Source: Jaapia argillacea MUCL 33604 (Eukaryota; Basidiomycota; Agaricomycetes; Jaapiales; Jaapiaceae). Taken from it: DNA of 64,000 nucleotides. Location: assembly GCA_000697665.1 (NCBI GenBank), contig KL197728.1:447154-511153 (forward strand). Reading direction: 5' to 3'. The position numbers were made by a program, and so were the translations under genes. This document shows positions 2,593 through 27,502 of the stretch, one piece after another (the first letter of the stretch is position 1; each line of letters begins with the position of its first letter). Under the pieces are notes generated by a model. The model was not told the DNA's origin, searched no databases, and saw only the letters and a program-made list of their open reading frames with translations.

Positions 2593-3398
2593 TGGCCTGG
2601 CTCTTTCTGTTGGCCTCTTTGCTCTGCCTGCTTCCTGTTGTCCAGGCTCAGTGCGCCATAAAGTCACCGCTGGTGTACATTATCATTGGGAGCGTTGGGC
2701 TAGGAGGACTTGTGTTGGGAGTATTTTTATCGGTGTGTATGGTCTGGCTTCGAGGACCTGGGATATTAGCGGTGCAACGATTAGGTATGCTCACCTTTAG
2801 ACGTTGACTTTGACCGCTTTTGTACACGTGGCTGACGCGAACTGGCGCTTCTGTACCTCAAGACGACAAGACGGGTCAGATGATATCATCTACGACAAAC
2901 CAGAGGAAGAATGTCAAACTGAGACGTGAGAGCACCGTTTGATCTTGTCACTTCAGCATGTTAACCAGTTTGCAGGCTCACACCCTCTTGACGACCCTCC
3001 ATTAGAGCTACCCAACGTTCCTGAAAAGGCTGGCACCTCCCCCACCCTAGAAAATGAATCGCAACCGGCTTTTCCTAGGCCTCAACTATATCCACCCGTT
3101 CTCTCTAACAGCTCGCAAGGGAGCTTCGGTTACGGAGGCAGAAACGCCGGAGCTTACTATGTAATTCACAGTCTTGAGTTCTCTCGCCACATTGTCTCTA
3201 ATACTGTTTGCATAGGATCCCAACAACCCAATGACGTACCCAACACAAACCCTCTCTGAGTCCACATCTACTTCGACTCTGTCGAGACCGCTGATCGGTC
3301 CCTACGTTCCTCCGTCCACCACGAACAAAAAGCACGGCATCGCCGGGATCGGTTCGGGCGCCCTCTCGATGTACCCACGACTTCCTGAGTTGCAGTAG
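2593..3398 (+). CDS. Miniature single-pass membrane protein, signal peptide and helix without ectodomain
   Basis: The product starts with a strong signal peptide (MAWLFLLASLLCLLPVVQAQ). Only about seven residues later comes a membrane helix (VYIIIGSVGLGGLVLGVFLS), followed by a basic and polar tail. Four exons fit GT..AG rules, with donors near 2785, 2927 and 3161, and run to a TAG at 3396-3398. The tail is Pro/Ser-rich and contains YGGRNAGAYY. It lies directly upstream of the six type I membrane-protein genes and shares their order of signal peptide, helix and soluble tail, but lacks the cysteine ectodomain and stalk. I infer a reduced relative or a decoy-like by-product of the array. An upstream in-frame ATG at 2427 would add a less convincing N-terminus. 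Confidence 0.5.
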
Positions 3399-3978
3399 AC
3401 CTCCCCGACGATGGGTATCTCCTCATTGTACGGTTAAAGCTGCCGCACGGTGCGCGGTCCCTGTTAAATTATTTTCTTGTGATCCTTCTGGAGAAACAGC
3501 ATGAGCTCGCTCTCTCATACTTTTTTTTATCATTGAAAGTCTCAACACGCGGCTCATCACACTTCTGCAAGGCATGATCTATTCTGCCGCAGCCTCAGCC
3601 TTTGCTCCCTGTTCTCGCACCAACTCACATTCCGAAACTTTTCATGCTTGTCGCTGACTTCTTTCGGGGTGATCAACATGTCATGACATCATATTTGATG
3701 GTACCTTTCATTGTCTGGGCGTTCTTTCCGGTGGCTGTGCCCCCGAGACACATGTGTTCCATCCTCCAGGATTGGTTTCCGTTGACGAACTCGAACATGC
3801 TAGGTCTTGGCACGACTTCGAAATCAGACGTGATTTACCGGTGCGACCCTCATGGACGAATCTAAGGCTGTAACAGGGCACAGCCAGCGCCACCTCCTTT
3901 GGCCCAGCCCGCCGCTGGCCAAGCGATAATAGACGGCTGCCATAGCTGTTCGTTGTGCATTCCTCTTCGGAGTCTTCA
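3399..3978. other. Intergenic, no gene seen
   Basis: I see no coding exon with family similarity here. It probably holds the 3' end of the miniature gene and the promoter of the gene at 3979. Confidence 0.5.
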
Positions 3979-5420
3979 ATGATGATCTACCCCCTTCGTA
4001 AAACTCCTCTTATTTTTCTTGTAGGATTATTTGCATGGTCCTTCTACCCGTCGCGTGAATTTTCTTTTGGCGCGAATGCCCAGTCGACCGCAGCAGTTTG
4101 CACTCTCAATTCCGCCCTAGTATGTCTATCCCCTTTCTATCCCCTTTCTATCTACACTCATGCTCATTTCATCGTTTCCCGTGTCGCAGACGACAAACTC
4201 ACTGGGTCTGGATGACTGTTTTCTGTTTGGGACGTTGTGGAGTCTTTGCATAGGGCAGTGTGAGTTTGTCAGCGATTATCTCCCTTGTTAAAGCTGACGC
4301 CGCGAGAAAGCTGGTACGGTTGGCCCTCTTCCTGCCGGATACCAATATGCTGGACCATACGCATCCAAGGGTCAGGTGAATAGCTGCTCCTGCAGTACGG
4401 TGATGTACAACATCGCTAGCGCTTGCGGCTACTGTCAAGGAGGGAATTGGATCACGTTCGTTTCTTTCTCTTTTCTCCCGTTTATAAGCTGAGCTATGTA
4501 CTCATAGGTATGCTCAGTGGGCCGGAAATTGCTCAACGTCACAAATGGTTACTGGGTGGGTTTCTAGGATATTTGTTTGTTTCGTCCCACACTCATATCA
4601 GACGCCTTTCGCAGATATCCTTCCCCCATCCCGCCTGGGGTAAATATCCCTCATTGGGCCTACATGTCCATGCCGGTATGTCTTATCCGTTATTGGATGA
4701 ATTGTACATCGATGACAGTTTCACCTTCTTGCGTGCGATTTTCCATAGTCCACGGGTACCTTCAGTCCGGTTGCGGCTCTTCAAGTTGGAGGTGTGTAGG
4801 AAAAGTATCGCACTTCTTATTGGGTCTCATCTTGTGTTTCTGTATGACGCAGATACCCCTGAATCTTCTGCAGTGCCCTCGCAATCGTCGACCACACCAG
4901 TACCCAGTGCCAGTCCCACTACACCAGTGCCAACACCCACACCTACACCCAAGAAGTCTCACGCAGGCGCAATAGCGGGTGGTGTAGTTGGAGCTGTCGT
5001 TGTAATTTGCATCGTGATCGCTGGTGCTCTCTTCCTCCGCCGGCGCTCACGCCAAAACAACCAGACCACAGCTAATCCTTGTAGGCTATCGCTTGTTATT
5101 GCTTTGGATCTTCCTCATCTTCCTCACTCCCAACAGATATGGCACCCCCAGTCCCGCAACCTATACCATCCCCAGCGATGACGCAGAACACCCAAGGCTA
5201 CTATGTGCGTCTTACCATCACCGGAACTTCTTCGCTTTTTCCCTAATCCTATTTCTTCAAGAACCCCGACGATCCCAGAACGTGGCCTTCAAGTGAGGCC
5301 TACAATAAACCTCCGATTCAGCCTTACAACAGCCAACCGACTTATGCCGCCCCTCCTCCTCCTCCTCCAGGTATCAACTACGCTGTGAACGGAGGTTACC
5401 CGAATCTGCCTCAACTTTGA
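3979..5420 (+). CDS. Type I membrane protein of the cysteine-ectodomain array, member 1
   Basis: A signal peptide (PLIFLVGLFAWSF) is followed by an ectodomain with the array's signature, here CSCSTVMYNIASACGYCQ, then WAGNC, then the YPSPIPPGVNIPHWAYM segment. A Ser/Thr/Pro stalk with a VPTPTPTP run follows. One membrane helix (AIAGGVVGAVVVICIVIAGA) and an RRRSR stop-transfer come next. The cytosolic tail is Pro-rich, with a run of six prolines near its end. The model has at least nine exons: an exon encoding FSPVAALQVG is recognisable by its counterpart in every paralogue (for example FDVAAASTMG at 24.1 kb). The function of this family is not known to me; the layout suggests a cell-surface sensor or adhesion protein. 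Confidence 0.7.
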
Positions 5421-5715
5421 ATCGCCTTCACCTCCCCAGCGTTTGCTCCCACTTTCATTCACGACTCATTCTGGCTCATGCATCTCTATTTCACGAACAT
5501 TTTATCGTTGTTACGAGACTATTCGGACTGGTCTATTATGTACAAGTATTTCTCTGCTATTTATCAGATTTAAGTTGGATGGTCGAATAGGTCCAGCCTT
5601 CAGTCGTGGTTGGCTCCCTACCGCTGCGATTCGCGCTGCTCAGCTTGAAGACACCCGCTTCAATGAACTTGGTTGAAGACTTCGAGCATATCGAGTCCGA
5701 AATTGGTCTCTACTA

Positions 5716-6824
5716 CTGTCCAATGCCTACTACTCGGCCACTCTACCGAATTTCGTCAATATCTTTCCCATCCCCCCACTGAATCCTAAGCAGTAATTTC
5801 TAGTGTGTAGTATACCTTCATGCTCATGTATGAGCACTGGCAAACTTATTTTTGAATTGAGTGAAACCTGCTACGAATATTTTGAGCGGGAGGGTGCGAA
5901 ACTGTGCTGTGACCGGGTGCTCGGCCATGTGTCACAATGGGAGGTGGGATTGGTATGGATGGGTCGTTTGGGCTCGTAGAGTATCATAGTGAACCAATAC
6001 ACATAATACAAGAACATTGGGGACCATCAGAGCCAACATAAGCATAAAATACGGGAGCAAAATCGGTCCCCCGGATGAGAAATAGGGTGTGAGGAGGGGT
6101 GTGGCAAAGAAAGTGAGGCCAGATAATGGGGAGGAATGCAAACGGCAGTTGAAACGGTATCTTCGTGGACCTGGGATGTCATAGAATCACATGGGAGGGG
6201 TTTTGAGGCAACAAAATGGCACGAGCAAGTAACCTTTCTTCGTGAGTGGGGGAGAAGGGGAAAACAGCACCTTCATCTTGATAGGCCTCCCCAGTATTGG
6301 CGTAGCGCAGAAAAATTCTAAAAACACGTGTGTCGCAGACTCAAAGGCTGATAGAAGAACCCACAGCAAATTGAAAGACACTCCTGCCCAATTTCAAGTC
6401 CCAGCCTCCAGTCTCCACCGGCCTCTCAAAACCCTGCAATCCCCGAGCCGCCCTAGTCCGAAGCTGATATCTCAGAGATAATTGCAATTTTGAGGAAAGA
6501 GAAAAAGCCAGTTGAAAGAAGGGATCTAATGGTGTAAGCTAGTCATGGAATGAAGCGAAACGAGATCGTATTGAGAGTGGGAGAGAGCGAAGGAGGGCAG
6601 GGCAGCTTGAGCACGTGAGATTTCATGCCGGATTTGGACTTGGTCAACTTCACCAGATGATTTCTCTTTCAATACTCTACCGATTTGCTTCAAATTTGGG
6701 AGACAGGATGCTGGGATTGTCTATTCCATGGTACTAGCAAAAAACTCTATGTATAGAGAATAGGAGGGCGTGGAGAGACGAATGGCCGAGTACCCAGTCT
6801 GGCCGAGTAGGGGGTGTGGGACAG
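5716..6824. mobile_element. Non-autonomous TIR DNA element, copy 1 (1,109 bp)
   Basis: The ends are inverted: CTGTCCAATGCC plus CTACTCGGCCACTC on the left, and GGCCGAGTAGGGGGTGTGG ending in GACAG on the right. The left end is preceded by TA; the right flank reads AA, one change from a TA target duplication. About 70% or more of the body can be followed in the next element (6867-7959) by eye. No transposase frame is present. TA duplication and short TIRs point to a Tc1/mariner-type MITE-like element, an inference from structure. Confidence 0.7.
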
Positions 6825-6866
6825 AATAGTCCGTCTCGGACCTCCAGTCATCCGTAACGAAGCTTA

Positions 6867-7959
6867 CTGTCCCACGCCCAGTACTCGGCCACTCTACCGT
6901 ATTTGCGAAATATCTTTACTGTCCTTCGACTGAATCCTAAACAGTCTTCACAGGTGTGTAGTAAACCTTCTAACTCATTCACGAGCGCTATAAGAATTAT
7001 TTTTGAGTGAGATCAAAAAGTGCTACGAATATTCTGGATCGGGGAGTCACAAAAGGTGCCGTGACCGTGTACTCGGCCAAGCGTTACAGTGGACGGTGGG
7101 GTCGATATAAGAGTGGTGCTTGGGCTCGTAAGGTGTCGTAGTGAAGCAATGGTCATTATACAGGGGCAACTAAGACATGGTCAGTAGGTGTGGGTGTGGG
7201 CTGAGAGGGGAAAATCATGGGTGGTGGAGTGCAAGTAGGGGTTGTGGCGGAATAAGGGATGCCATAGGGCAAGGAGGGGTTTAAACGAGACTGGGAAGGT
7301 GTGGATGTAGACCCAGGATGTGGTAGAATATATTGAGAAATGTTTTGAAGTGTCCGAAGGGCAAGAGCCGGTGATCTGCTTTCGTGAAGGGGGGAAGAGG
7401 AGCAGGCGAGAGTTTCATCTTGATAGGCTCCCCAAATATCGACAGAACACAGAAAAAATCTGAAAAGGTGAGCGTTAGAGACTCAAAGGTCAGCAGATGG
7501 ACTCACAGCAAAGAAAAAGCCACTCCTATTTGGCCTCGAGTCCTAGCCTCCCATCTCCCACTCCCACTCCAAACATTACAATCCCCAAGGCACCATAGTG
7601 TGAACCCCATAAAATGTCGCCGTTATGAGGGAATTGAACCCACCTTCTGAAAGAAGAGACCTAACAGTGTAGACTGGCGATTGAACCAAGCGAAACGAGA
7701 ACATATTCAGAGCAGGAGGAGAGGAGAACGGATGCAGAGGCTTGTCAACGTGGGAAATCCAGCTAGATTCGGAGTTGGTCCATTCAGTTGAATGATTTCT
7801 CTTTCAATATTGTACGGATTTGCTTCAAATTCGGGGTATAGCAAGCCGAGATTGTCTAATACATGAAAGTAGCAAAAGATTCTGTGTATAGAGCATACAA
7901 GGTGAAGGAGAGACGAATGGCCGAGTAGCCAGTCTGGCCGAGTAGGGGGCGTGGGACAG
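6867..7959. mobile_element. Non-autonomous TIR DNA element, copy 2 (1,093 bp)
   Basis: This copy has cleaner ends than its neighbour. It starts CTGTCCCACGCCC and ends GGGGCGTGGGACAG, flanked on both sides by TA. Inside the tips, CTACTCGGCC-type sequence recurs inverted, and near the right end a GGCCGAGTA word occurs twice. It lies only 42 bp after copy 1, in the same orientation. The body has no coding potential. The minus strand of 7629-7641 reads like a tRNA T-arm, but no complete tRNA can be folded around it. Confidence 0.75.
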
Positions 7960-8633
7960 TATATAGCTTCCGCATTGCATTTAACCGCCCAAGCACCTCT
8001 CGGCGCTCGCCGGACGATGCGTACTCAACGTTAACCTGAAGGGACGCTTGTCTTTCGACGTACAGAGGCTCGACTCTGGCGACAGAAGTGTCCGTGATGC
8101 CTCTGACCTCGCCCTTCGGCCTCCGTCAGACGCTGCACTTTCGACAAGCCTTCAAGCAAGTAACGCCGTCGCCAGCTTACCCCGTGCCCAAAGTGTTATT
8201 TTTATCGCTCATCGGAGTCAAGCACGCTCATTTCCGAGTCGTGCCTTGATCATCGTCGATAGACGGAGGAACTATTTCCTTGGCGTCTGGTCTCTGCAAC
8301 GCTTGACCTGTGCTTGGACTCTCCAGAATGCATTCGTGCCATATGTCATTGGCACATTGCAATCTCTTACTTACGATTTTCCATCCGAGGCTCCTCATCG
8401 TTTCAGTATTGTTTCGGACGTCAAATTCCATATCACTTCGCTTGGCCAAACCTGTGAAACCTCGCTAAATCATCTATTTTTGTCATAAGTACGACCGGAG
8501 GGGGTTACGGGGCCCTTGACGAGACGAGGGACAATGCGCATACATATAGCCCACTTCCTGATCTTCAGGGCTTTCTCCTGATACTACACCTCGCTCGCCG
8601 AATGTCCTGCTGCACGACTGGAATACGACAACA
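7960..8633. other. Intergenic, no gene seen
   Basis: One frame stays open from about 8048 to 8488, but it has no recognisable domain, no family match in the array and no plausible start. I read it as upstream sequence of the gene at 8634. Confidence 0.4.
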
Positions 8634-9936
8634 ATGATTTCCGCCATGAAGCTTGCATCGATGTTCTGGCTGCTGGCGTTATCCCTTAGTGGAGCAGTGC
8701 AAGCACAATTACTGGCGTATTGCACCATTACTCCCTCCGTCTTGGTGAGTCCACACGATCACCTCCTGTGTCACTGGTGATTCATTGGGAAGGACAGACG
8801 AAGAACTCACTCGGTCAAGATACATGTTTCGTTTACTATGAACTATTGACACAGTGTGTCGGCGCCAGTGAGTCCGTTAGTGAATCCTTGTGTTTATTAC
8901 TCATGACAGGCACACTTCCCAGCCGTTACTCTCTATCCACTCACTGCGGGCTTAACCTACAACGGACCTTCTGTAGCCAAAGGAATTGACCCCAGCGCGT
9001 GCACCTGCAGCTCGGTTAACTACATGCTCGCGAGTGCGTGTGGGTATTGCCAGAACCAAGCCTGGGTCACGTGCGTTCTCCCATTTCGCATTGTAGCTGC
9101 ATGTGCTGAGTTTTCGCGCGTAGTTTTGCTGAATTCACCTCGAATTGTGCCGCATCGGAGATCACCATTGGGTCAGCGCGCCCCAAATCCCTTCATCCTC
9201 CGAATTAGTGTGGACTGATTTCGCGTTAATGGTGTAGGTATCCGGACCCGGTCCCAGAGGCCGTCGTGGTTCCCGCTTGGGCGACCGTGAGCATCCCAGT
9301 AAGTACATCATGCGCTCAACAGTGTTTGATCGTCTAACAGCCACGAAATCAATGATCAGACATCTTACAATTTCGACCCAACAGCCGCACTTGAAGTCGG
9401 TGGTGAGTTGCATCCCCCCCACACACTTCCCTCGGTCGTGCATTTCTGAGCCTTCACTTTATCACGTAGGAGCGAGTGGGTCGATTGGATCCTCCCCAAC
9501 CACCGCTTTCACAACTACCCAGCCCCTCCCAACAACAAATTACGGAAGCCCTGGTGCCAGCAAAAGTAATGTCGGGGCGGCTGTAGGTGGAGGAGTCGGT
9601 GGTGGAGTCGGACTCATTGCTATCGTGAGTGGGCTGATCTACTGGTGGCGGAAGAAACGATCGCAGCCTCCTTCGAGTGGGGTTTATCCGCAAGGTTGGA
9701 ATTTTCTGTTTTGGATTCGTATCCTTCTACTGACTTGTATTTGATGTTTTACAGCACCACCGCAACCAATGCACCAAACATATACTACGCATCCAGCTTA
9801 CACACCGGTCCCACAGACTTCCCCGGACATGTGTCCAAAGGTTGAGATACCGAACGATTATGTGAGTACTCCGTGTTTCGCGGATGTGGGAAAGGAGTGT
9901 ACTTACGCCTGCTTTTCAGGAACCCACTACGTTGTA
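8634..9936 (+). CDS. Type I membrane protein of the cysteine-ectodomain array, member 2
   Basis: The signal peptide is MFWLLALSLSGAVQAQ. The second exon encodes KNSLGQDTCFVYYELLTQC, nearly the same as in member 1. The third carries the signature CTCSSVNYMLASACGYCQNQ. Later exons encode EFTSNCAASEITIG, PEAVVVPAWATVSIP and YNFDPTAALEVG. A short Thr/Pro stalk leads to a Gly-rich membrane helix (AAVGGGVGGGVGLIAIVSGL) and a WWRKKR stop-transfer. The cytosolic tail is short and ends at TAG 9934-9936 in a small last exon (EPTTL). This member and member 1 form a subgroup (GYCQ rather than LCQNG). Confidence 0.7.
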
Positions 9937-10553
9937 GCCGTCTCCCTTGGATGATGTGGTTTGGGGACGTGTGCTACGAAAGGATGGTGCTCCTGTACGT
10001 CCTGATAGTACAACGTATTATGTAGCCCATTCTTTATTGGGGTCGATCTTCCTAGCCAATTTGTACTTAACCCCATAAGTACACTGATGACGCATTACGA
10101 CACGTTACGTTGCCCAGAGCTCCGTTCCCAACAACGCCAGATCATCGGATGCAGATTTCCCTTTCTTCACAGTCCGTCGCATACTTATGGCTTTGGGCGC
10201 TTGTTGGGCGCTTATTTGCCTCCGCCCTCAACAGCGAGGGACAACAACGTACATATCCTCCCCAGATATTCTGTTACGCTGGGTGAACGACTTGATAAAT
10301 CTCTGCCCCCTCCTTCCCCGCACCGTCTCGCGATGGCTGAGTCGCCAACTCTGATAGCTTGATCAGCACTGCTTCCTAGGTTAGCATCACGAACCCAATC
10401 TCACGGGCGCTTCCCTTGATCAATGATCCAGATCAATTTACTTTCGACTGCCGTTGCCGGCCCAACGACCAAAGTGGACATTAAAGGTTCCGCAGGCAAG
10501 TTACCACTTTCTCTCTTGTTCCACGATTGCGCACTCCTCGAAACACGACCGCG
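9937..10553. other. Intergenic, no gene seen
   Basis: No coding exon with array similarity was found. It most likely holds the terminator of member 2 and the promoter of member 3. Confidence 0.45.
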
Positions 10554-12269
10554 ATGCCTTGCCTCCGGCGTCCACAACTGCTTGACTTCTGGATTTTCTT
10601 CACTTTGTTCGCGTTCTTTCGTCCTTCGAGTGCCCAATGGACAAATGCCACTTGTCTAAATCCGTCACTGCTCCCCGCAAGTTTGGTAGGCCAGGACCTT
10701 GTCGCGACTGACAACTGCACTGACATATCTGCGATTAGAGCAGCAATTCTGTGCATCAAAGCCCTTGCCTTGTCGCGGTCTATTTATGGAGTCCTTGCCA
10801 AGGTTATTTTACGCCTACTGAAGGAGCCGAACAAATCCTAACTTGTTCCTTGTCCCACCAGCCAATGCTACGATCGACGCTCTCCCACCTGGCGGATCTT
10901 ATAATACATCAGTACTTGAAGTTAACTCGTGCGTATGTAGTACTGTGTGGTATTCCCTCCTCGCTGCCTGCTCGCTTTGTCAAAACGGGACCTGGGACCT
11001 ATCGTGAGTAACACCTTCTCTGACTGCGGCAATGTGTTGATTTGTTTTGTATAGCTGGGCTCAGTGGGTCACACATTGTGCGAGTAATGAAGTCACCACT
11101 GGGTTTGTCCGTTCTCCACTTGAATCGTGAACCACTAACAAGTGTTTCTAGGTACAAGAATCCTATTCCCGACGGAATTTTTGTCCCTCAGTGGGCTTAC
11201 GTTGACGTTACAGTTGGTGACTCCATATATCTCCTCGATCGAACTCAATCAATTCCATTCGTTAGATGACGAATGAATTCAACGTGCAAGCCGCCGTTCA
11301 AGCTGGCAGTGAGTTCCGCAGTCCTCTTCGCCCCTTCCCTCCCATGACAATTCCACTTTCGCAATAGATTCTCCGGAATCTTCAGGCGTTCCCTCCTCCA
11401 CTTCGTCAGCATCATCCACATCCAAACCAACAGCGCCACCCTCTGCTACCGGCACAAGCGGATCAGTGAACATAGGTGCCGTGATTGGCGGGCTCTTTGG
11501 TGGTCTCGCAGCAGTTTGTGCTGTGGGCTTTTTGTATTATCGGCGACGCAGGCTTGCTTTCGAGTGTAAGTCGGTTCTGCATCGACGTCCAAATTTAAGC
11601 CTGCTTTGCTCAGTTTTTCTCCTCGCACCAGACCAAGTGATGGGCTCTCATGACCAAAACGTCAAGTTGGTCATCAATCAATATACAGTGAGTACTTACT
11701 TGTGCGATCCAAGTTCATGGCAAGCCCTGACCATTTCGCTTGTACAGGGATCCACAGAGTCGGGGAAGGGCGCCTTCAGTTTGAAGCGTGCTGCATCAAC
11801 TGCTTCCTCATACGTCTCGGAGATGTTCAGCCTTTCGGAACTCAATTCCCACCCACTTTCTCCGACTCAGTCATCCATCCATGGTTCAGTTCCCGCTCCT
11901 CAATATCAACCTTATGATCCCCCACCAGCGATCCAGACGTCAAGCACAACGCTCTTTCATCGATCACCTAACGAGTTGGTCTCACCGACTTCGCCTGTCA
12001 TATCCCAACATTCCGCCACCAGTCAGGTACCAGATGTAGAGCCACATCACGATCCCAGGTCGCCAGACGTGGAGCTCATTACTCCCACCACCGTAGACTC
12101 GACTTCGCCACCGCCACCCGAGGAGCACCCGGTGGACGATATGGCCTCCACACTTGAACGTGAGACTTCGGGGGCATCTCGAGCGTCTTACCACCCGACG
12201 GTTCTTCATCTGGATACATATGATTATGATCCTGATTCCGCACCTCCTCTACCCAAAACTGTAAACTAA
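10554..12269 (+). CDS. Type I membrane protein of the cysteine-ectodomain array, member 3
   Basis: A basic N-region and signal peptide (FWIFFTLFAFFRPSSAQ) precede the first-exon motif CLNPSLLPASL. Exon 2 encodes HQSPCLVAVYLWSPCQG, exon 3 the signature CVCSTVWYSLLAACSLCQNG, exon 4 WAQWVTHCASNEVTTG, and exon 5 PDGIFVPQWAYVDVT. A short Ser/Thr stalk is followed by the helix IGAVIGGLFGGLAAVCAVGF and RRRR. The tail of more than 180 residues is Ser/Pro-rich with repeated SP/TP dipeptides, as expected for a phosphorylated signalling tail, and ends PPLPKTVN. About nine exons. It is the longest intact tail together with member 4. Confidence 0.75.
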
Positions 12270-13429: not shown

Positions 13430-15488
13430 ATGAAGCCCCCCACTACCTTTAGAGGGATCCTCTCCGTCTTGCTGCTCCATGGCGTACTACTCAACTCTAT
13501 TGACAAAGGAGGGGCACAGAAGTCTCTTGCTGTTTGTCTGACGCCCTCGTTGCTACCTCAGAGCATGGTCCGTACATTCCCTTCCGTCCTCTTCCTTTGG
13601 TTGCGACTCGGGGCGCTTATTTTAGGCCGATTCTAGTATTCCAATTCCTTGCACCAGGATCCTTGCCTAGTCGGGGCATGGTTATGGGGCGTATGCGGTG
13701 GTCGTGCGTAGTCATCGACTTCAATCCCTTACACCTCTCTTGATCTAACACAACATGACACTCTTATACAGAAGTAACAATAGGCGCAATCAAACCAGGC
13801 GTCACCTACATGACTCCTGGTCAAATGGGGCCCAACAGTTGTATATGTAGCTCAGTATGGTATGCCGTGATGGCTGCGTGCACCCTCTGTCAAAATGGGA
13901 CCAACGTAAAGTGCGTTTTCCTTGGATTATGCATCCGCATTCGTGCTGACTTGCTGCATTTATTCTAGTTGGCAGACTTGGGTATCCGGTTGCGCCACGG
14001 GAGAGGTCTCTGTCGGGACGTGAGTTTATTGTCCGAACTTGTCTTCCTTGGTGGATTCCCACAAGTATTTTCCAGATTCCCCTATTCCATTCCTGCAGGG
14101 CTTGCCGTACCTGCCTGGGCATATGTCGATGTCACTGTTAGTCCTGCTCTTAATGATCCGTACAAAGTCGCTAACTCGACGCCGAACTGAGCAGAAGACA
14201 GGCACCTTCGATCTTAACAACGCCTTGGAACTTGCAAGTGAGTCAACAGCGAAATCACTCTTGTCCGTATGTGTCTTTTCATTAATTTGAACATGGCAGA
14301 GGGACCGGAGTCTACGGCCGTACCGTCTGCTTCTGCCACCTCTTCAGGTTCCTCAAACGCCACCTCTACAGCATCAACATCCTCTACATCGACTTCTACC
14401 GGGGTCCCATCTCTCCCGTCTGTCTCAAGTTCGAGTTCTTCGTCCTCAGCTCCGTACATTATTGCCGCTGCTATAGGTGGGGTGTTAGCACTTGCACTAG
14501 GCGGGTGGTATTGGTATCGTCGACGCACCCGCTCTGGCTCAAGCGGTGGGGACTGTAAGTGGCCTTTGTGTTGATTCCTCGAACTTATCAAAGTGAATGT
14601 TATCGCAGATTCCAGACTTGGCATGCCAATGAACGAGCAACACTTCAACTTTGTCGTCAGCCAGAAGGTTTTTGGGGTGAGTCTCCTGCTTATTGGCGAG
14701 CGACGTACTCACATCCCACCTTCGTTTCCTTACCGGGTCCTGATCAGGACGACGACGAAACATCAATGAAAAGTCGTAAAACCCCCTTGAAGGCGACCGA
14801 GTCCTTCGAACTGCCAGATTTCTCGCCCACAGCAAATGCAGCGCCGGGAGCGAGCGGACCAGCTTCCCCCAGTGTTGTGTCTTCTCCGCCTCCGATTCAT
14901 CAGCCCCGTGCCTCAACGCCACTCACCTCTCCGTGGTCTAAATACGGCGCCGCAGCTAGTCCCCGACCGTCATCATTTTTTGCGTCACCCACGAGCAACG
15001 ATTTCCACGAACCAGACGCATACACTTATCGCGACGTTGAGCAGGGAGGTCATTACGCTGATCCGACTTCCCCACCTGCCGGGATGGATGTTCCTGGACC
15101 TTCCACTCCTCAAAGTTCTGCACGGAGATTCGTACGTCCTCAGGCCTTTTGCCGGATATTTATTCATTTGTTGAATCCTTGTCTTTAGAACATGGGCTTC
15201 GAGAACCCATCGTCATCGGTAGCGACACCGCAACTCAACTCGGCACCCCTCGATGATGCAGCCTCCATTGGGTCCTCCCACTTCTCTATCATCAGTGCCC
15301 GTCCGCAATCTGCGCAGGCTCCTTACTCGCAAGGTTCCTCGGCACCTGTTGCTACGCCTGGGGTTCCGGGGTTGAAGTACCCCTCGCCACCGGATACGGT
15401 GCCCTCTGACGCTGAACATGACCATGATGACTATGATGCCAATTCGATCCATCCTACATTCCTCTCTCTTAATAGTCGAGTGAGATGA
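13430..15488 (+). CDS. Type I membrane protein of the cysteine-ectodomain array, member 4
   Basis: The signal peptide region (GILSVLLLHGVLL) is followed by VCLTPSLLPQSM. Exon 2 encodes NSLHQDPCLVGAWLWGVCG, exon 3 the signature CICSSVWYAVMAACTLCQNG, and later exons PAGLAVPAWAYVDVT and FDLNNALELA. The stalk is a dense Ser/Thr tract before the helix IIAAAIGGVLALALGGWYWY and RRRTR. The long tail (over 270 residues) is Ser/Pro-rich with YTYRDVEQGGHYADP and an acidic stretch near the end; a further intron splits it near 15133. It is convergent with the minus-strand family that starts after 15.8 kb. Confidence 0.75.
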
Positions 15489-15866: not shown

Positions 15867-16678
15867 TTAGGAAACCTGCGTCAGGGATGCACTCGACGAA
15901 GGGGTAGCATAGGTTTGGGACTCCAGACCGCCGGGAGGTGTTGTGGAAGATCCAGAGGATGGATGTGAGGTTGATGGGAAGACCGGTGGGGAGGAGGTGG
16001 AGGCGGAGGTAGAGTATGTCGACCCGTCGGATGGGGTATTGCCACTATTAGTAGCTTTCGGTGCCTGTGTGCCCGTCTGGGTAGTGGATTGACCCACAAC
16101 CGAATTGGCCATTTGGCTAACAGCGGAACTGCTACTAGTCCCCGACGATGTTGGATTCGATGGGCCAGGAACAATACTGGCGATGTCCGAAGTATGGTGC
16201 TTCCTCGACCCAACTACCCCTCCCACAACAGCTGCGATGATCACCACGCCAACGAGGACGACGAGTAGGATGAGACGACTTCTTCCTTTCCGAGAACGAG
16301 AGGATGAAGGAGGAGTAGATCGATGTGGCGAGGGTGTGAATCGCTCTTTGAAGAATGATCCAGTGGGGGTGTCTTGGTTCCCATCACCGATACCAGCGAA
16401 GGGACCACTCTCCGAGTGAGAGATAAGGGGATGGAGGATAGGTGGGCGGTACACGCTATTATTTCGACCTACTTGTGTCACAGGTTCTTCCAGTATGTCG
16501 ATATCATATCCAACCTAAAGACACAAGTGTTACCACTGATGATTCAATATCTACAATAGAGATATGGCTATGAGTCATGGCTGATTGGACTAACCTGTCT
16601 TTCTGCGCGACTCGTGGCAGGTGCATTGACAAGTAAGGATTCATCGTAACCTCCATCGCGTCCGTTTGAATGATACAT
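15867..16678 (-). CDS. N-in single-pass membrane protein with DxxLL repeat, member 1
   Basis: Two exons (16678-16595 and 16514-15867) give a 243-residue protein. Exon 1 encodes one diverged unit, MYHSNGRDGGYDESLL then VNAPATSRAERQ. Exon 2 opens with GYDIDILEEP, matching DGYNIDILDQ in member 4. A basic patch (SRSRKGRSR) precedes one helix (LILLVVLVGVVIIAAVVGGV), and the remaining 120 residues are almost entirely Ser, Thr, Pro and Gly. There is no signal peptide, so the N-terminus is predicted to be cytosolic and the C-terminus outside or luminal, probably O-glycosylated. DESLL fits the DxxLL motif that binds GGA adaptors. Function unknown. Confidence 0.7.
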
Positions 16679-17351: not shown

Positions 17352-18361
17352 CTAGCCTGAGCTAGTCGCAGAAAATGCAGTCGGGTCGATTGACGCTATC
17401 CCAGTTACCTGTGGTGCCAGGGAACACGGCACGAGGGACGTGGTTGTGATGACGATGGGAGCCGTCATGGTGGTTGCGAAGTATGGGAACACCACGATCG
17501 TCGGAGATTCGCAAAAGGTGGGTCCGCTGGTTGTTGGCCACGTATCGACGGGTGACGAAATGCCGGTCGGGTAAGTCGCGATTGTGCTGGTAGCAGGGAC
17601 TGTGCCGGATGAGTTGGTCGGCACGTTTTTACCGAAAGATTCGGTAACGGAGCGTACCCCGGACTTCACGACCGTAGTCGTATTGGTTTTCTGGGACCCA
17701 CTGCTCGCAAGCTTCCTAGTTCCTCCCACAGCTCCTCCGACTATGGCGGCAATGATAACGATGCCGAGTAAGAGTAGGATAGTAGGGGTGCGCCTGCTGA
17801 ATCGTGTGCGGGGAAGAGGGGAAGGAGGTGTTCCAGGTGACGTGGAACGGCTTTCTTTCAGCGTCGGCTCATTGGGAGGCGAGTGGCTCTGAGCGGTTAA
17901 AGGATGGTGAGTTGGTTGATAAGGAACGGTGTCTTGGCCGACGTCGTATTCACCCTACATTATAGAGAAGAAAAGATATGTTGAGCGGCGAGAGGAGTAA
18001 CAACAAAAGACTAAACGGACTTCACTAACCTGCTTTTCTAACCGACTTGCCTGAGGTCCGCCTGCGAGGAGGGACCTATCGTGATACATTGCGTGAAGCT
18101 GGGAGGGGCAGAAAAGTCAACACCGCCGTTATAGCTTCTACAAAGGATTAACCACGAACCTGCTTGTCTGACTGATTTGCCTGAGGTGCGCCTACGAGGA
18201 GGGACCTATCATAATCCATCGTATGAAACTGAGAGGGCGAAGGGCAGAGGAGGGATATCGTCATTATAGCCTCGACAGAAAATGAAGCGGAAACCACGAA
18301 CCTGTGTTTCTGACCGATTGGCCTGAGGCGCGTTTGCGAGGAGGGACCTATCATAATCCAT
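17352..18361 (-). CDS. N-in single-pass membrane protein with three DxxLL repeat exons, member 2
   Basis: Four exons: 18361-18302, 18228-18160, 18098-18030 and 17954-17352, giving about 266 residues. The first three exons encode the repeat (MDYDRSLLANAPQANRSETQ, then two 23-residue units starting FHT and LHA). All three begin and end at codon boundaries. The last exon runs from GEYDVG through a basic patch (RTRFSRRTP), the helix ILLLLGIVIIAAIVGGAVGG and a Thr/Ser-rich C-terminus with two cysteines. The chosen start is the Met inside the first repeat; its exon still carries a 3' splice acceptor just upstream (CCCTCTCAG), so an additional upstream exon cannot be excluded. Confidence 0.65.
18030..18361 (-). 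repeat. Tandem exon-intron repeat, three units (member 2)
   Basis: Units of about 130 bp, each made of a 69-nt coding exon and a 60-70-nt intron. Acceptor (CTCTCAG or CTCCCAG), exon and donor (GTTCG or GTTAG) are conserved. The encoded consensus is FHTMDYDRSLL, two variable residues, APQA, two variable residues and S-x-KQ. All copies are phase 0, so units can be gained or lost without a frameshift. Confidence 0.8.
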
Positions 18362-18816: not shown

Positions 18817-19438
18817 CGAATCGGAAGCAGAACTTGAATTTAGCTAGAAGACGTTTCGTACGCCTCAAGATTCGAGAGACCTAAATGGTTTAGATCGATC
18901 ACAAGGTCCGAGTGGAGCATGCCTAACGAAGGACTGCATAGATAGCACAACAACGAGGTGCCCATCGGCCATGGGCAGTGCATGAGATGATGCATCTTGT
19001 GCCACGGTCAGGTGCTTGGGGCGAGATACTGTATCTGATAACGATGAGGCTGTGATTTGAAAATGTCGACCCAGGGTTATGGTTGATAACATTCCAAGTC
19101 CAAATTAGGAGGCGGAATGGGACAATATTCACTGAAACTGGGAGAGAGAAAAGTTCGAATAATGAAAAGGCAACATCGGTCTAGGAGAGAAGCAACTAGT
19201 GCGACATATTGACCTACTGGCAAGAAACACACTTGGGGCAATCCCATCTATATGCCACGATGCGACAAATTGCAATCGTAACCCTCTGCCAACCATATTG
19301 ATTCGACGTTAACTTGGGGGACCGAGCGGGCTGACCATTAAACCATCCACAGATTCCATCTCCCCCACTAGAGCCCCTTGCTCCAGGAGGGGAGCCTCGG
19401 GGCAACAGAATGACTAACCAATGGCGAGGAATTAATCC

Positions 19439-20447
19439 TCAACAACAAACTATCGGGTTCGTGCCGGATGGCGTGCTAACCGGTGATGCCACGGAACACA
19501 ACACAATGAACGTGGTTGGGACGAGGAAATCCAGTGAACCGGAAATAGTGCTAGTGACCACCGCAGTCGTTGGAGATCCATAAAAGGTAGATCCGTCCAC
19601 TATTTGCAACATACAGCCAGCTGACGGCACGACGGTCGAGCTAGTTGTGGTTGTGCTGGTAACAGGGATGGTGCTGGATGAGTTGGGCAGGATTGTGCTG
19701 AAAGGGTCGGTAACGGAGCGTGCCCCAGATGTCTCAGCCGTAGTCGTACTGGTCTTATGGGACCTGCTACTCTCCAACTTCTTAGTTCCTCCCACAGCAC
19801 CCCCGACTATGGCGGCAATGATAACTACGGCGAGTAAGAGTAGGATAATAAGGGTGCGCCTGCTGAATCGCGTGCAGGGAGTAGGGGGACGAGACGTTCC
19901 ACGCGGTGTTGAACGGCTTTCCTTCAGAGCCAGTCCATTGGGAGGTGGGTTGCTCTGAACGATTAAGGGACGGCGAGTTGGTTGATACGGAATGGAATCC
20001 TGGCGTTGGATCTGTTTGTCAATGATATCGACGTTGTATTCATCCTGTATTATGGAGAAGAAAGATAGGCTGAGCAAGAGAAGTAGCAACGAAAACCTGA
20101 GCGGAATTCACTAACCTGCTTCCCTGACCGACTTGTCTGAGATGAGTCTGTGAGGAGGGATCTATCATAATGCGTTGTGTGAAGCTGGGAGGGAGACAGG
20201 TCAGAAGGATCGACATCGCCGTTATAACTTCTACACAAAAATAATCACAAACCTGCGTTTCTGACCGACTGGGCTGAGGTGCATCTACGAGGAGGGACCT
20301 ATCATAATCCATCGAGTGAAACTGAGAGGGCGAAAGGGGAGGGTCGTCGTTATACCCTCGACAAAAAATGAAACGGAATTCACGAACCTGCCTTTCTGAC
20401 CCACTGACCTGAGGTGCTTTTGAGAGAAGGGACCTATCATAATCCAT
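19439..20447 (-). CDS. N-in single-pass membrane protein with three DxxLL repeat exons, member 3
   Basis: Exons 20447-20388, 20321-20253, 20184-20116 and 20044-19439 give about 267 residues. Repeat 1 starts at its own Met (MDYDRSLLSKAPQ); here the upstream splice acceptor has decayed (TTATTTTCG in place of CTCAGTTTTG), supporting this start. Repeat 3 has lost the Met (LHTTHYDRSLLTDSSQ) but keeps DRSLL. The last exon opens DEYNVDIIDKQIQRQ, then a basic patch, the helix IILLLLAVVIIAAIVGGAVG and a Ser/Thr-rich C-terminus with three cysteines. The membrane segment has GGAVGG, a possible helix-packing motif. Confidence 0.65.
20116..20447 (-). repeat. Tandem exon-intron repeat, three units (member 3)
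   Basis: The same 69-nt exon plus 60-70-nt intron unit as in member 2. Units 1 and 2 have MDYDRSLL and unit 3 has THYDRSLL. The units of members 2 and 3 correspond by position, so triplication predates the duplication that separated these two genes, or was homogenised afterwards. Confidence 0.75.
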
Positions 20448-21227
20448 TGTGCGAAAATAAGAGGGCAAGAGAGTGAGAGTGGAAGAGGAGGGATATCGCC
20501 ACGGGCTGGAGCTTTGAGGATACAACCTCGGAGCATATCTGACAATCTTCCAAAGACATTTATAGCAGCGTAAATGGCCGCGAGTATACTTCTATCTATG
20601 AAAGAGGGCGCTAATCTGTATCGCTACCTTGTCAGTTTACCTCGAATGCTTGTGAATGCATAGTTCGCGGGTCCTTGTTGCTCAGCTTGATCAAAAATAG
20701 CATGCGCTGTGTCGTTGGAATCGAACGGGGGTACAATAAAACAAGGGTCCTGCCGGTGTCGTCGTATCTCTCTGTTCTCCTAGCAGAATTATTGCAGAAT
20801 AACAATAACAGACCAGTCGGCAGGTCTCGGCACCCTTTCTTCCAATGATCGCAATGGTTTCCTGATAGGATGATGAGCTCGAGACCAGACAGGACAACAC
20901 GAAACGAGGGGACTACGAGACTAAGATAATGTAGGTGGACGCGACTAATGAGGAGTCGACAATGTCGAAGACAGAGAAACGAAAGCTGAAAGAAAAATAA
21001 AGTTCGGAGCCACGTGCGCCGTCCTCCCTCGGATAGACCTGCAATCGAACAACAAAATGACAACATCGGTGCTAGAGACCCAAGAAACAACTTGTAAACG
21101 CGATAATCTACGACCAAGAAACATAAAACAATCCCATCCATACTTCACGATGCGACATATCGTTACCCTCCGTTCGACTTTAACTTGGAGTGGGCTGATC
21201 AATAAACCTTCCACAGCTTCCGTATCC

Positions 21228-22040
21228 TCACATAGGAGCCATTGATACGCCGTGTGAGGGTGGGGGTGAGGGTGTTGATTGTGATTGCACGCCCCCATAA
21301 TCGCTTGAGGTAGTGGTCGGCGACGCAGAGAGGGAGCGCTGTGAGCTCGGGGCACACCACGCGATTGACGTGATTGACGTGAGGTAATCCGAGGAAGTGG
21401 GAGTCCATGTCACAGCGGTCCATGACACGATCGTCGGAGATCCATAAGTGCTGATTCCGTCCACCGTTTGCATCCCACAGCCGGCCGACGAAATGCTGCT
21501 TGAGACAGTCGCGTTTGTGCTGGTAGCAGGGATCATGCTGGATGTATTGGTAAGCACGATTGTGGGTAACTGGTCGGTAACGGAGGGTGGATCGGAGGTC
21601 TCGGTCGTAGTCCCATTGGTTTCATGGGACACGGTGCTCGCGGGCTTCCTAGTTCCTCCCACAGCGCCTCCGACAATGGCGGCAACGATAACAATGCCAA
21701 CCAGGAGTAGGATGATCGGGGTGCACCTTCTGGATCGCGTGCGGGGAGGAGGGGGACGCGTCGTTCCACGTAACGCGGAACGATTTTCTTTCCACGCCAG
21801 CTCATTGGGAGGTGGGTGGCTCTGAGCGGTTAAGGGACGATGAGTCGGTCTATACGCGACGGATGGGTTGCGTTGGATCGGTTGGTCGAGGATATCGATG
21901 TTGTATCCATCCTGCGTGAGGGAGAAGAAAGATATGTTGAGCGGGAGGGGTAACAGCGAGATGAGGTAGACTTTACGAACCTGCTTTTCTGTCCGACTGG
22001 CCTGAGGCGCATCTGCGAGGAGGGATGTATCATAATCCAT
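21228..22040 (-). CDS. N-in single-pass membrane protein with one DxxLL repeat, member 4
   Basis: Exon 1 (22040-21981) encodes MDYDTSLLADAPQASRTEKQ; exon 2 (21911-21228) opens DGYNIDILDQPIQRN. A basic patch (RTRSRRCTP) precedes the helix IILLLVGIVIVAAIVGGAVG. The C-terminus is Ser/Thr-rich with three cysteines, then a Pro/Ser tail ending HGVSMAPM. The 69-nt intron has no stop and keeps frame, so retention would give a longer protein with 23 extra hydrophobic residues. About 247 residues if spliced. Confidence 0.65.
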   Translation of the reverse strand: MDYDTSLLADAPQASRTEKQVRKVYLISLLPLPLNISFFSLTQDGYNIDILDQPIQRNPSVAYRPTHRPLTAQSHPPPNELAWKENRSALRGTTRPPPPRTRSRRCTPIILLLVGIVIVAAIVGGAVGGTRKPASTVSHETNGTTTETSDPPSVTDQLPTIVLTNTSSMIPATSTNATVSSSISSAGCGMQTVDGISTYGSPTIVSWTAVTWTPTSSDYLTSITSIAWCAPSSQRSLSASPTTTSSDYGGVQSQSTPSPPPSHGVSMAPM

Positions 22041-23334: not shown

Positions 23335-24908
23335 ATGTCGAATCTTAGGTCCCACGCTCGGAATAATCGGGTTGTCGGAGCGCGACTACTCCCCGGCACC
23401 ACCGTCATCGCTGTCGTTTTCTTGTTGGCGAAGATTGTGACCGCCCAATCCACAAACGCTGTTTGCCTCACTCCATCCCTCCTACCGGCCGGTCTAGTAA
23501 GTGGTCTTGACTGGTATCCTCCTTGTAGGTTGGCAATTACTCACCAGGCGTCCCCCATTGGCATACTTAGTACGACAATTCCCTGCAGCAAACTCCTTGT
23601 AAAGTAGCTGCGGTCGTATGGAGTCCATGTGTTGGCTGTGTGTATTCTACTCTCGTCAAGCTTTTGACATACCCTTACATCAGTCGCGTTGAATAGCCAA
23701 CAACATTAACAACATCTCTGTGGGGGAATCCTATGCTTCCCCCACTCCCAACGGATGTGCATGCAGCTCGGTGTTCTACTCTCTTGTTTCTGCGTGCGCC
23801 TTGTGTCAGAATGGCACCACTACAACGTACGTCTCAAAGCTGGTCGTTGTGGATTGAAGTATAACTTGGTGGTGTTGGACAGGTGGTCGGCGTGGGTCAA
23901 GAACTGCACCATCACGGAGACTACTGTTGCAGGGTCAGTTCGGCCTCTTGTGCTGACGTGACTCCTGGACATTAATCATTGACAATCGTTTCAGATATCC
24001 TTACGCGTTGCCATCAGGGATCGCCGTACCTCATTGGGCATATATAGATCCGACTGTAAGTTCGTCCCGCAATAGTGTCGCCTGTTTTTTATCAATAGTC
24101 ATCGTAGATAACGGACAACTTTGATGTGGCCGCTGCCTCAACTATGGGGGGTACGTCTTCCACTGATCGCACTCGATTGTACGTGATTTAATTCTGCCTT
24201 AATCAGACACGCCGGAATCATCGTCAACAGCATCAAAATCGTCAACATCCGCGTCGTCGTCGTCGTCGTCATCATCATCATCTTCGGTTTCGTCCCAGAG
24301 TTCTAGCACTGCGGCTGTTACTGCGACAGTAACTGTGATTCCTACTCCTCACAAAACCAACGCCGGGGCTATTGCTGGAGGAGTCATCGCTGGCATCGCG
24401 GTGTTGCTGGCAGGATTCTTGTTCTGGTTCTTCAAGATGCGGCGGAGCGCGCAAGCTAACGGTACCCGCGTGGAGCATTCTACGAACCAAGACCAGGGTG
24501 TGGAAAAGGTGCAGTAATAGTCTTCCTCCATCTCACCCTTATGTGGACTCATTGCCGATCGTCACGTGACAGAGCTATCGTGATCCCGCGATTGCAGCAC
24601 CTCTACTAACAGAAGATTATGTCCACCCGTCTTCTCCAGAAAGTTCTGGATACACGCCTCCCCCCTATCAACCAGCTCAATCGCATCCTTCTCCGATTGG
24701 TCCAACGCCACACACTCCCACGTCAGCGAGTTATAGGCCGGGAGAAGCGACCTATGATGCATCGATATTATATGGAGCTGGGCCAACCGGAAACATCGGG
24801 CAGGCGCCGAATGCTTTTGTGCCGAACCCGACGATGTCAGATGGAGTTGTGGGTGGTCACGGGAGGGACTCGATGGTGCTTCCTCATCCTGGATTGCCGG
24901 AGTTATGA
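23335..24908 (+). CDS. Type I membrane protein of the cysteine-ectodomain array, member 5
   Basis: The signal peptide TTVIAVVFLLAKIVTAQ is followed by VCLTPSLLPAGL. Exon 2 encodes NSLQQTPCKVAAVVWSPCVG. Exon 3 has the signature CACSSVFYSLVSACALCQNG, then WSAWVKNCTITETTVAG, PSGIAVPHWAYIDPT and FDVAAASTMG. The stalk includes an 11-Ser run written by TCG and TCA codons. The helix is AGAIAGGVIAGIAVLLAGFL, then FFKMRRSAQ. The tail has the phrase DPAIAAPLLTEDY and Pro/Ser-rich sequence ending HPGLPEL. It resembles member 6 in the tail (GSAAPLLPHNY there), so members 5 and 6 are sister copies. Confidence 0.75.
24254..24286 (+). repeat. Polyserine codon microsatellite in the stalk of member 5
   Basis: Five TCG, four TCA, one TCT and one TCG codon in a row encode 11 serines. 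A pure trinucleotide run in frame can change length without breaking the gene, so stalk length may vary between strains. Confidence 0.85.
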
Positions 24909-25631
24909 GACGGTATTTGAGGTCGCTCTGACTTGTATGCTTATTGGATGGCTTCTATGGATGTATTTATTTTTATGGTGGATTATTGTGGTACTTTCTA
25001 TCTGCTTTTTTCGCCTCATTTGCTTATTGTTTCGAACTATTCAGGATCGGACATTTGTTGTTACATTGCACTATCAATTTTACAAGGCTGCTTCTACGGA
25101 TCCATCGTCCTCAAGTCCTCGTGTTACACTCAAAAATTGCGACGGGAAGCGTGAGATATTACACAGGATGGTTTCGTACGTCTGCTTGGCGTTTTTCATC
25201 CTTGATCGCCGTGGTCTCTCAGGTTAATGCGATGGTAAGACGGGTAAACAGACAGTTCACTCTTCAAACGATCGGAGGGTGTCAGATAATTATAAATGGG
25301 TCGAGGTCGTGCACATCAAGCGCCGAGCATTTTTATCCTGCCTCGAGGGATCGCTTTCTAACATGTTCGTTGATTCGGAGAGCTTTTCTGTGTTGTTCGC
25401 GAGAAGAGGCTTCAGTAAACGCTCGGTGACGGAGTATATCTGACAGTAAACTTCTCTGATCAGTTCTACTACCGCAGATACCCCTTCAGTTGAAATCCTA
25501 TCGCATCGCCCTCAAACATAGCCTCTGTTGTTCACATGATGCACGGTAAGGCGCTAAGATACAGAGGCCTGCTTAATATATCTGCTTGCACTAGCTAGGT
25601 GAGTACCATTGTCGGTGGCCCCTTCAGTCGC
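24909..25631. other. Intergenic, no gene seen
   Basis: Frames here run on from the member 5 tail in other phases and show no domain. It probably holds the 3' end of member 5 and the promoter of member 6. Confidence 0.4.
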
Positions 25632-27502
25632 ATGGAGGGTTACTCTCGCCTTACCTCCCTCCCGATGTTTACCCTCATTGCGATTATATTTTCTGGGCTC
25701 GCAGGGATCGGCTGTGTCTTCGCACAGACGACAAACGTGACATGTCTCAGCCCATCCTTGCTGCCCTCATCACTGGTACGTACTTTCGTTGCCTAAGTAA
25801 TGTGCCTCACCTTTGCCTACATCGCACAGTATCCGGATCAATCTTCGCCTGACCAAAATCCATGCTTTATAGTGGCTGGATTATGGGCTCAATGTGTTGG
25901 TCGTAAGTCTCCCTGGTACTACTATGACCAGGAATTATTGAAGTTGTTTGCTTGGAAGCCTGTAATGTTGACCAGATCCCGCCTGGTGAGACATACAACC
26001 CACCTTCTCCCTCGAACTGTTCGTGCAATTCGGTGTTTTATTCCCTTGTCTCGGCTTGCTCGCTTTGCCAGAACGGAACGGTGGCATCGTCAGTATATTC
26101 CCCCTTGATTTCGAGCCTATACCTGATTATGAGGATAGATTGAGTTCTTGGACAACTAATTGTTCCTCGTCGATGATGGATCAGTGAGATGAAGTCTACT
26201 CTCCAGAGAGCAAGAAATTAACACGGTTTCAATCTAGATATCCCAATCGCAATTCCTTACCAGATGGAGTGGTCGTCCCTCTTTGGGCATATCTTGAAGT
26301 TCCTGTAAGTCCATTTCATAGGTCTTCTCTTCAACTTCTGTTCTCAAGAATAGGATAGGCCAATGGATCGTTCAACGTGTCCTTTGCTTCGGCGATAATA
26401 GGTGAAAATCTACAATACAATGGCAACTATATCTTGCTTATCCCAACGCCTGCCACTGCTCAGATTCGCTTTCTACGACGACAAGCATATCTAGCACGAC
26501 GTCATCTACGACACACAGTGCCACCTCAACGACAGTCACCACTCGCACTAAGACGACTACTTCGACAACCGCCACCACATCGACAACTGCCACTACATCG
26601 ACAGCGGCGACCACGACCTCTGTGATTGTATCCGTAACAACTACTTCGACAGTGGCACCTTCACCGTCGCCAATCGTCGGGAACGTGGCTGGGGGTAATA
26701 CTACTCAGACCCCAAGCGCCACCCCTACGCCATCACCGCAGGCGAAGCCCACTGACACACGTGTCGTTGCTGGTAGCGTTGGCGCAGTCGCTGCTGTTGG
26801 TATTATAGCTGGCTGTGGGTTTTGGCTCTTAAGACGGAGAAGATCATCTTCACCAAGTCAGTTGCCTCTCACGATCACCGGCAAATCTTGCGATAGCTGA
26901 ACTACTTCATCACCACAGATCGCGGTACGCAGAAACATAGTGCTTTGCCCCAGAACGACGAGGACCAGGTGCGAATTTTAACCATTGCAGTATAACTCTA
27001 ACCGGACGGATGTCTTTGCTAGGATAATCGCGATCCGGGATCGGCAGCGCCTCTGCTTCCTCATAACTACTCGCCGCCAGCTCCCTTCGGATCCTTAGGG
27101 TACATCCCTCCCCAAGACCTCCGAGCCCCTATCCGATATACTTCACCCATTTCACTGACTCCCCCAACTCGCGGTGGCTCACGACTAACTCGTGCTTCAA
27201 ACGAGGCGACCACCACGGCAAATCCCAGCTACAACACCAACTTGAAATTACTCCACGATACGCAAGTGGACAATGCGAGCCCCACTTCGTTGTATGGCCC
27301 TGCGATGGCTGGGCACACAGTTTCTGGTGGGACCCGTTCTACGCGCACGGCCTCGAATGAATCAGGCCGGAGACGCAGCACTACGTCCCCTTTCACCTCC
27401 GGTAAAAATACTGGGACAGTACGTTCTCTTGATAATATGGCGAGTGTCGGTGTACCAGCCTCTCATCCTGGTATTCCCGAACTATACGAGCCTCCTCGAT
27501 AA
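25632..27502 (+). CDS. Type I membrane protein of the cysteine-ectodomain array, member 6
   Basis: The signal peptide is FTLIAIIFSGLAGIGCVFAQ, then CLSPSLLPSSL. Exon 2 encodes DQNPCFIVAGLWAQCVG; exon 3 has CSCNSVFYSLVSACSLCQNG; a short exon gives SSWTTNC; then PDGVVVPLWAYLEVP and FNVSFASAIIG. The stalk is the longest of the array: repeated TTTSTTAT-type blocks about 100 residues long. The helix is VAGSVGAVAAVGIIAGCGFW with RRRR. The tail (about 190 residues) is Ser/Thr/Pro-rich and ends GIPELYEPPR, recalling the LPEL end of member 5. One exon (26110-26190) is diverged and its borders are uncertain. Confidence 0.7.

Follow-up and report, generated by a model that had tools for sequence, protein, structure and literature searches.

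A tandem array of candidate type I sensor or receptor genes enclosing an apparently unrelated block of N-in membrane protein genes in Jaapia argillacea

Introduction

Fungal CFEM proteins are extracellular and have eight cysteines, in a pattern in which a CxC is followed by a further cysteine about ten residues on, and CD3-zeta and DAP12 are adaptor chains of the immune kind. Wsc1, a fungal sensor of cell wall integrity, combines an eight-cysteine domain, a serine/threonine-rich (S/T-rich) region, one transmembrane (TM) segment, and a short tail on the inside, as set out in the accessible part of the source (PMC7915640). Wml1 and Wml2 (Wsc-Mid2-like) of Cryptococcus neoformans possess an S/T-rich region and a TM segment and feed Mpk1 signaling, according to the available portion of PMC9765558. 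In Coprinopsis cinerea, 158 conserved developmental gene families either lack annotation or have domains whose function is unknown, a figure taken from a partial text (PMC10949477). Here we describe a stretch of 64,000 nucleotides (nt) from Jaapia argillacea MUCL 33604, positions 447154-511153 of contig KL197728.1 (C20), hereafter called the window, in a genome of 43.7 Mb in 95 contigs. It holds genes for two families of single-pass membrane proteins: type I proteins, which in their full form have an eight-cysteine head, an S/T-rich stalk, one TM segment, and an inner tail, and N-in proteins, which have the opposite topology.

Results

We tentatively read the array in the window as a single family of type I sensors or receptors of the plasma membrane, seemingly undescribed and duplicated in tandem, with an unrelated tandem block of N-in genes lying inside it. 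A codon-based automatic gene finder placed few genes at the array; models forced between fixed ends were then corrected by hand from the common exon structure. All 11 window gene models built in this way are in frame, with GT-AG introns and no internal stops (Table 1). Seven type I genes (six full and one miniature) lie on the forward strand, and the four N-in genes form a single block on the reverse strand, in the interval between T1_5 and T1_6. These splice-resolved models reproduce the gene set and arrangement given in a preliminary description of this DNA, made from the sequence alone. The extent that it gave to the array holds for the genes of the window, but the array itself is larger, as two more full type I genes and a second miniature lie upstream, in C20:437154-447153. 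The space between the genes had been called almost empty, but one gap carries two tandem repeat copies. The stated variation in low-complexity length is seen in the stalks, which are S/T-rich and measure 33 to 99 amino acids (aa) across the six full window genes. Tandem duplication, also part of that description, is plain in the DNA for N2 to N4 and old for the type I genes of the window, with synonymous divergence (dS) saturated in the three pairs tried.

The type I head is about 130 aa long, has eight conserved cysteines, and is encoded by six exons with fixed intron phases. Six head introns of phases 0,1,2,2,0,1 are present in all six full window genes, an agreement that is not independent inside the window because that pattern was one of the grounds for choosing the models by hand. 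A genome search with the 43-aa exon 3 of T1_6 returned 19 places, and exon 3 of T1_2 returned one more, which makes at least 20 head places: eight on C20 (two of them upstream of the window), nine on C61, and one each on C5, C17, and C30. At the 14 loci outside the window, a splice-aware profile aligner trained on the window genes read a head in every case. It placed intron 1 in 8/14 loci, introns 2 and 3 in 14/14, intron 4 in 13/14, and intron 5 in 11/14, and each of these first five head introns, wherever placed, has the window phase; the first exon was not placed clearly in 6/14. At seven columns, 19 to 20 of the 20 head rows retain the cysteine; 14 rows cover the eighth column, and 13 of them have the cysteine there. 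A tree of 19 heads (C61_101 was left out) puts T1_4 to T1_7 together (91/90) with the C5 head nearest (94/88), both below the mark for firm support, groups C61_20, 24, 29, 32, and 36 with the C17 head (100/100), and leaves T1_2 and T1_3 unplaced. Many Agaricomycetes probably carry similar heads in hypothetical proteins. Viral contigs gave 54 matches to an exon 3 pattern, none of which was confirmed.

Further introns split the inner tail. We scanned the sense strand 3' of the head in three frames, over 1166 to 1400 bases. Of 22 type I genes and miniatures, 16, both miniatures among them, have a terminal [LIVM]P[EQ][LIVM] that closely follows a P or G and lies at most seven residues from a stop; the antisense strand of these stretches gave 0/22 as a control of specificity. 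The last exon begins with DPxDPxT-like residues in T1_1, T1_2, the C5 and C17 genes, the second miniature, and five C61 genes. Genome searches with the tails reached seven places each, all of them family members, and missed most other family tails. Head and stalk are absent from both miniatures, which keep a signal-peptide-like N terminus, about nine outer residues with one cysteine, the TM segment, and the tail end. For the second miniature (local positions 7709-8770 of C20:437154-447153), the first exon and the last exon (DPNDPTTYP...GIPEVYE) were read; a genome search with it returned only its own match, missed T1_1, and is too weak to exclude other miniatures. Separately, a fragment on C75 resembles the T1_4 tail, and the profile aligner found no head in that 3.2-kb locus.

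The opposite topology claimed for the two families is supported by the N-terminal hydrophobic peak, the flanking charge, and the small outer half of the TM segment. In type I proteins, a hydrophobic peak at the N terminus, which we read as a signal peptide, is combined with positive charge after the TM segment; in the N-in proteins the peak is absent and positive charge stands before the TM segment, with a small difference in N2 and N3 (+4 before versus +3 after). Residue volume was compared between TM halves in 16 of the 22 known type I genes and miniatures and in nine N-in proteins. The N-terminal half is smaller in 15/16 type I or miniature spans (the exception is T1_5) and the C-terminal half in 9/9 N-in spans, so that the small half would face outside in both families. 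TM segments of the fungal plasma membrane have smaller residues in the outer leaflet, according to the consulted part of PMC2928124. The N-in proteins form a separate family, probably of the plasma membrane.

Comparison with known families returned little. Seven window proteins (T1_2, T1_4, T1_5, T1_6, N1, N3, and N4) scanned against Pfam at E up to 1 gave nothing above the curated cutoffs, and the matches below them, several on the TM stretch (ErbB TM and Pilin_N), were rejected as composition. A Pfam scan of 15 of the 20 heads at E up to 10, with filters that drop most matches above 0.1 (C61_24, 29, 36, 71, and 101 were left out), found no family matching more than one head. One head matched Amidase_5 (E 0.00029), for which T1_5 had 18.9 bits against a cutoff of 21 in the scan of window proteins; we rejected this match as chance because no other member matched. 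Neither the WSC domain (PF01822) nor the CFEM profile (PF05730) matched any of these 15 heads. Genome-wide, an exon-by-exon search, in which a split domain could hide between exons, gave no WSC match above the cutoff (best E 0.24, on C3); CFEM, searched in the same way, gave five matches, on C13, C14, and C31, and none at C20 or C61. A profile of the head matched none of 177635 PDB sequences at E up to 10. By profile, the type I proteins are neither WSC nor CFEM proteins. Neither family is described in the literature searched on the family or on such sensors, and the type I family is seemingly new by that literature, by Pfam, and, for the head, by PDB.

In each of the four N-in genes of the window, D-x-S-L-L lies in the first exon, and the last exon encodes the TM segment and an S/T-rich outer part. 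N2 and N3 have three tandem in-frame copies of the first exon, and N1 and N4 have one. Across the copies in N2 and N3 (17988-18427 and 20074-20513), DRSLL is present in 6/6 and an own ATG in 5/6; these repeated exons may all be spliced in, or they may be alternative first exons. The D, both L residues, and the last Q of the first exon are invariant over nine exon copies, eight in the window and one on C32. An inner Dx[SA]LL exon, followed by an exon that starts near GY[DN] and carries the TM segment, is found in N1 to N4 and in the third N-in gene on C32, which has the same two-part plan; the GY[DN] position reads EYD or EYN in N2 and N3, and N2 is shortened there. Two other C32 genes and one C7 gene have a TM segment of the N-in type but a PPPYSS inner part, and a second C7 frame resembles the first near the TM segment, with PPPYSS not seen there.

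Some further observations concern these genes. The inner parts with PPPYSSPAPP, in proteins of C32:406001-416000 and C7, contain a PPxY that recalls WW-domain binding, and a type I protein of another kind adjoins the N-in genes of C32:406001-416000, on the reverse strand. The duplication left a relic upstream of N2, at 18761-18969, which is 88 to 90 percent similar to 16623-16818 and copies the first exon of N1 together with the sequence upstream of it. The D-x-x-L-L of the N-in proteins resembles GGA and adaptor protein (AP) sorting signals. Yeast Chs3p carries DEESLL, the pocket for DXXLL is missing from yeast GGAs, and the LL of AP signals is preceded by three residues, as given in the accessible text of PMC3463608. 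We do not claim a sorting role for the N-in motif, given that missing pocket and that AP spacing.

Genome queries with N-in proteins were strong on C20; on C32 they gave E 9e-105 (the query's own gene) and otherwise 4.5e-5 to 0.014, on C2 at best 2.6e-4, in a frame that seemingly has only the TM segment in common, and weaker values on C3, C7, C9, and C53. No match was listed on C61, C5, C17, or C30, the four other type I loci, and C61:19001-39000, read directly, contains no N-in frame. Type I queries listed no match on C32, and an aligner scan of C32:406001-416000 found no eight-cysteine head. Linkage outside C20 was thus assessed from searches scoring the best candidates only, together with the direct reading on C61. 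Since these searches and readings found none at the others, only one of the five type I loci, C20, is known to hold N-in genes. The pairing of the two families is not general: elsewhere in this genome they appear unlinked, a finding that bears on linkage only and goes against the preliminary description. Their neighborhood is most likely a local accident of chance and local duplication.

We estimated omega (the ratio of nonsynonymous to synonymous change) from pairwise Nei-Gojobori counts, averages that can hide selected sites. Among N2, N3, and N4, omega is 0.22-0.55 in the TM segment, 0.47-0.72 in the inner part, and 0.81-1.19 in the outer part, where all intervals span 1; against N1, the outer part gives 0.48-1.13 at dS above 1.4. 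The outer values fit loss of constraint as well as diversification. For the type I heads, omega is 0.09 in C20_441/C20_443, which are under purifying selection, 0.34 in C61_69/71, 0.49 in C61_32/36, and 0.66, 0.66, and 0.82 in C61_20/29, C61_97/101, and C61_29/32, with intervals reaching above 1 in these last three. No point estimate exceeds 1 in the six head pairs, so that, with the N-in outer parts at about 1, the diversifying pressure suggested earlier is not supported.

Other features surround these genes. The tandem repeat in the array has inverted ends (25 nt, 80 percent, in the first copy; 27 nt, 93 percent, in the second), and its 172-base end piece has 14 genome matches, of which 12 fall at 10 places beyond the window; it is probably a non-autonomous DNA transposon family. 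Between the two miniatures lies a gene of the beta-lactamase family by Pfam (243-1502, model incomplete), to which a frame at 48755-50083 is similar by eye. Two similar frames at 29155 and 32674 look P450-like by eye, and the single piece scanned with Pfam was unmatched. About 24 kb from the array, 51934-55739 contains an NPHP3_N ATPase frame (NACHT just below the cutoff) and a WD40 repeat frame, NLR-like in combination; NLR-like genes are known in fungal non-self recognition.

Table 1. Features of the array, in window coordinates
Feature	Position	Strand	Description
T1_1, miniature type I	2592..3398	+	Signal peptide, outer part of ~9 residues (one Cys), TM, long inner tail with MYPRLPELQ at its end; from gene model and tail motif
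T1_2, full type I	3979..5420	+	Eight-Cys head, stalk, TM, tail ending GYPNLPQL; from gene model and tail motif
Two tandem repeat copies	5714..7963		~1.1 kb each, inverted ends; outside the genes
T1_3, full type I	8634..9937	+	Short tail without terminal motif
T1_4, full type I	10554..12269	+	Divergent long tail without terminal motif
T1_5, full type I	13430..15488	+	Divergent long tail without terminal motif
N1, N-in single-pass protein	15867..16678	-	Two exons, one DESLL motif
N2, N-in	17352..18361	-	Phase-0 exon in three tandem copies (60 nt once, 69 nt twice), DRSLL in each, 5' of TM exon
N3, N-in	19439..20447	-	Three-exon repeat as in N2
N4, N-in	21228..22040	-	Repeated exon in single copy (DTSLL)
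T1_6, full type I	23335..24908	+	Tail ending LPHPGLPEL
T1_7, full type I	25632..27502	+	Longest stalk (99 aa); tail ending HPGIPELYEPPR

Discussion

The preliminary description had suggested a surface system for recognition, adhesion, or signaling. For the type I proteins this is reasonable, given a secreted eight-cysteine head, an S/T-rich stalk, a TM segment, and a mostly conserved tail; the parts of the suggestion that concerned pairing and diversification do not hold up in the analyses made on this genome. As sensors or receptors, the type I proteins would present a disulfide-knit head to a ligand in the wall, the matrix, or the cell surface, a stalk that may be O-mannosylated would span the wall, and the end motif of the tail could draw in an inner partner. 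In such assemblies the miniatures might serve as head-less donors of tails or as competitors. For their part, the N-in proteins would combine a conserved inner DxSLL with a weakly constrained S/T-rich outer part, next to the type I genes by chance and local duplication.

Two other accounts of the type I genes were considered. It is somewhat unlikely, in our view, that the array reflects neutral birth and death, with recent copies redundant and drifting and a conserved role kept only by a core single copy such as that on C5. The omega of 0.49 to 0.82 in four young C61 pairs, with three intervals reaching above 1, would be expected of such drift, as would the decayed copy C61_101, the relic of the T1_4 tail on C75, and the N-in outer parts with omega close to 1; on the other hand, all 11 window gene models have open frames, and the heads of C20_441/C20_443 give an omega of 0.09. 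Rather unlikely, too, is a purely adhesive or structural role, in which type I mannoproteins would anchor the wall to the membrane without signaling and stalk length would set their reach. The S/T-rich stalks and the lack of any Pfam inner domain in the four full type I proteins scanned are consistent with this, but the tail end is conserved in most members and is retained in miniatures that have neither head nor stalk.

As for the neighborhood of the two families, it is improbable that selection holds the two together because their products act as co-receptors or as receptor and ligand. The position of the four N-in genes inside the array argues for it, as do the small, glycine-rich outer TM halves of both families and the chance of an N-in locus falling inside the 122 kb of type I loci on random placing, which is 0.6 percent for two N-in loci and 1.1 percent for four and was computed after the fact. 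Against it, neither the nine C61 genes nor the lone members on C5, C17, and C30 have an N-in match nearby, N-in genes stand on C32 without any eight-cysteine gene that we could find, and small outer TM residues are general in the fungal plasma membrane, where flat dimerization motifs are not substantially enriched according to the part of PMC2928124 at hand. A bolder idea concerns the miniatures, which would be fungal counterparts of immune adaptor chains that have lost the head, with the same signaling tail and an outer cysteine near the membrane for pairing. We consider this analogy very doubtful. If it were true, miniatures could join those headed receptors that have divergent tails of their own (T1_3, T1_4, and T1_5), and mushroom-forming fungi would have, in the array, a modular system of receptors and adaptors in which the tail end motif docks an inner partner.

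Several observations also weigh against the reading that we prefer, a sensor or receptor family enclosing an unrelated block. The low overlap chance just given is one. The tail is not universal in the family, because six of 22 members lack the end motif (T1_3, T1_4, T1_5, C61_97, C61_101, and the C30 gene), three of them in the array itself. The antisense control of that motif speaks to specificity and not to independent discovery, because the pattern was written after the ends had been seen. Individually, the asymmetry of TM volume reaches p < 0.05 in 6/25 spans and is not significant in the other 19, and its rows are paralogues and not independent. Among the heads, C61_71 has an irregular exon 4, and C61_101, in which one head cysteine and a conserved tryptophan are changed, looks decayed.

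The interest of the locus rests moderately on a modular type I family with a conserved tail and head-less copies, and is low for the pairing. The modular plan of this family is clear, its tail motif can be tested, and head-less versions exist naturally, all in a genome with no WSC match above the cutoff. Its genes are concrete candidates for the sensing of wall or neighbors in mushroom-forming fungi.

It remains to set the type I proteins beside the systems named at the outset. Like CD3-zeta and DAP12, the miniatures have a minimal outer part with one cysteine, a TM segment, and a long tail in common with headed receptors; unlike them, they show by eye no immunoreceptor tyrosine-based activation motif (ITAM) and no charged TM residue, and their assembly is hypothetical. 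The heads share with CFEM proteins the eight cysteines, the fungal and extracellular setting, and a CxC with a cysteine about ten residues on, but the 15 heads scanned have no CFEM profile match. Wml1 and Wml2 also belong to the surface of a basidiomycete and likewise have an S/T-rich region and a TM segment, a likeness by description only, and no eight-cysteine head is described for them in the portion of PMC9765558 consulted. Compared with Wsc1 and the WSC sensors, the type I proteins differ in having no WSC profile match and in forming tandem arrays, and the likeness is one of architecture, tail sequences apart. Within that architecture, as far as the accessible description of Wsc1 goes (PMC7915640), the eight-cysteine head, S/T-rich stalk, single TM segment, and inner tail are all present, and by this analogy the type I proteins may work like WSC sensors.

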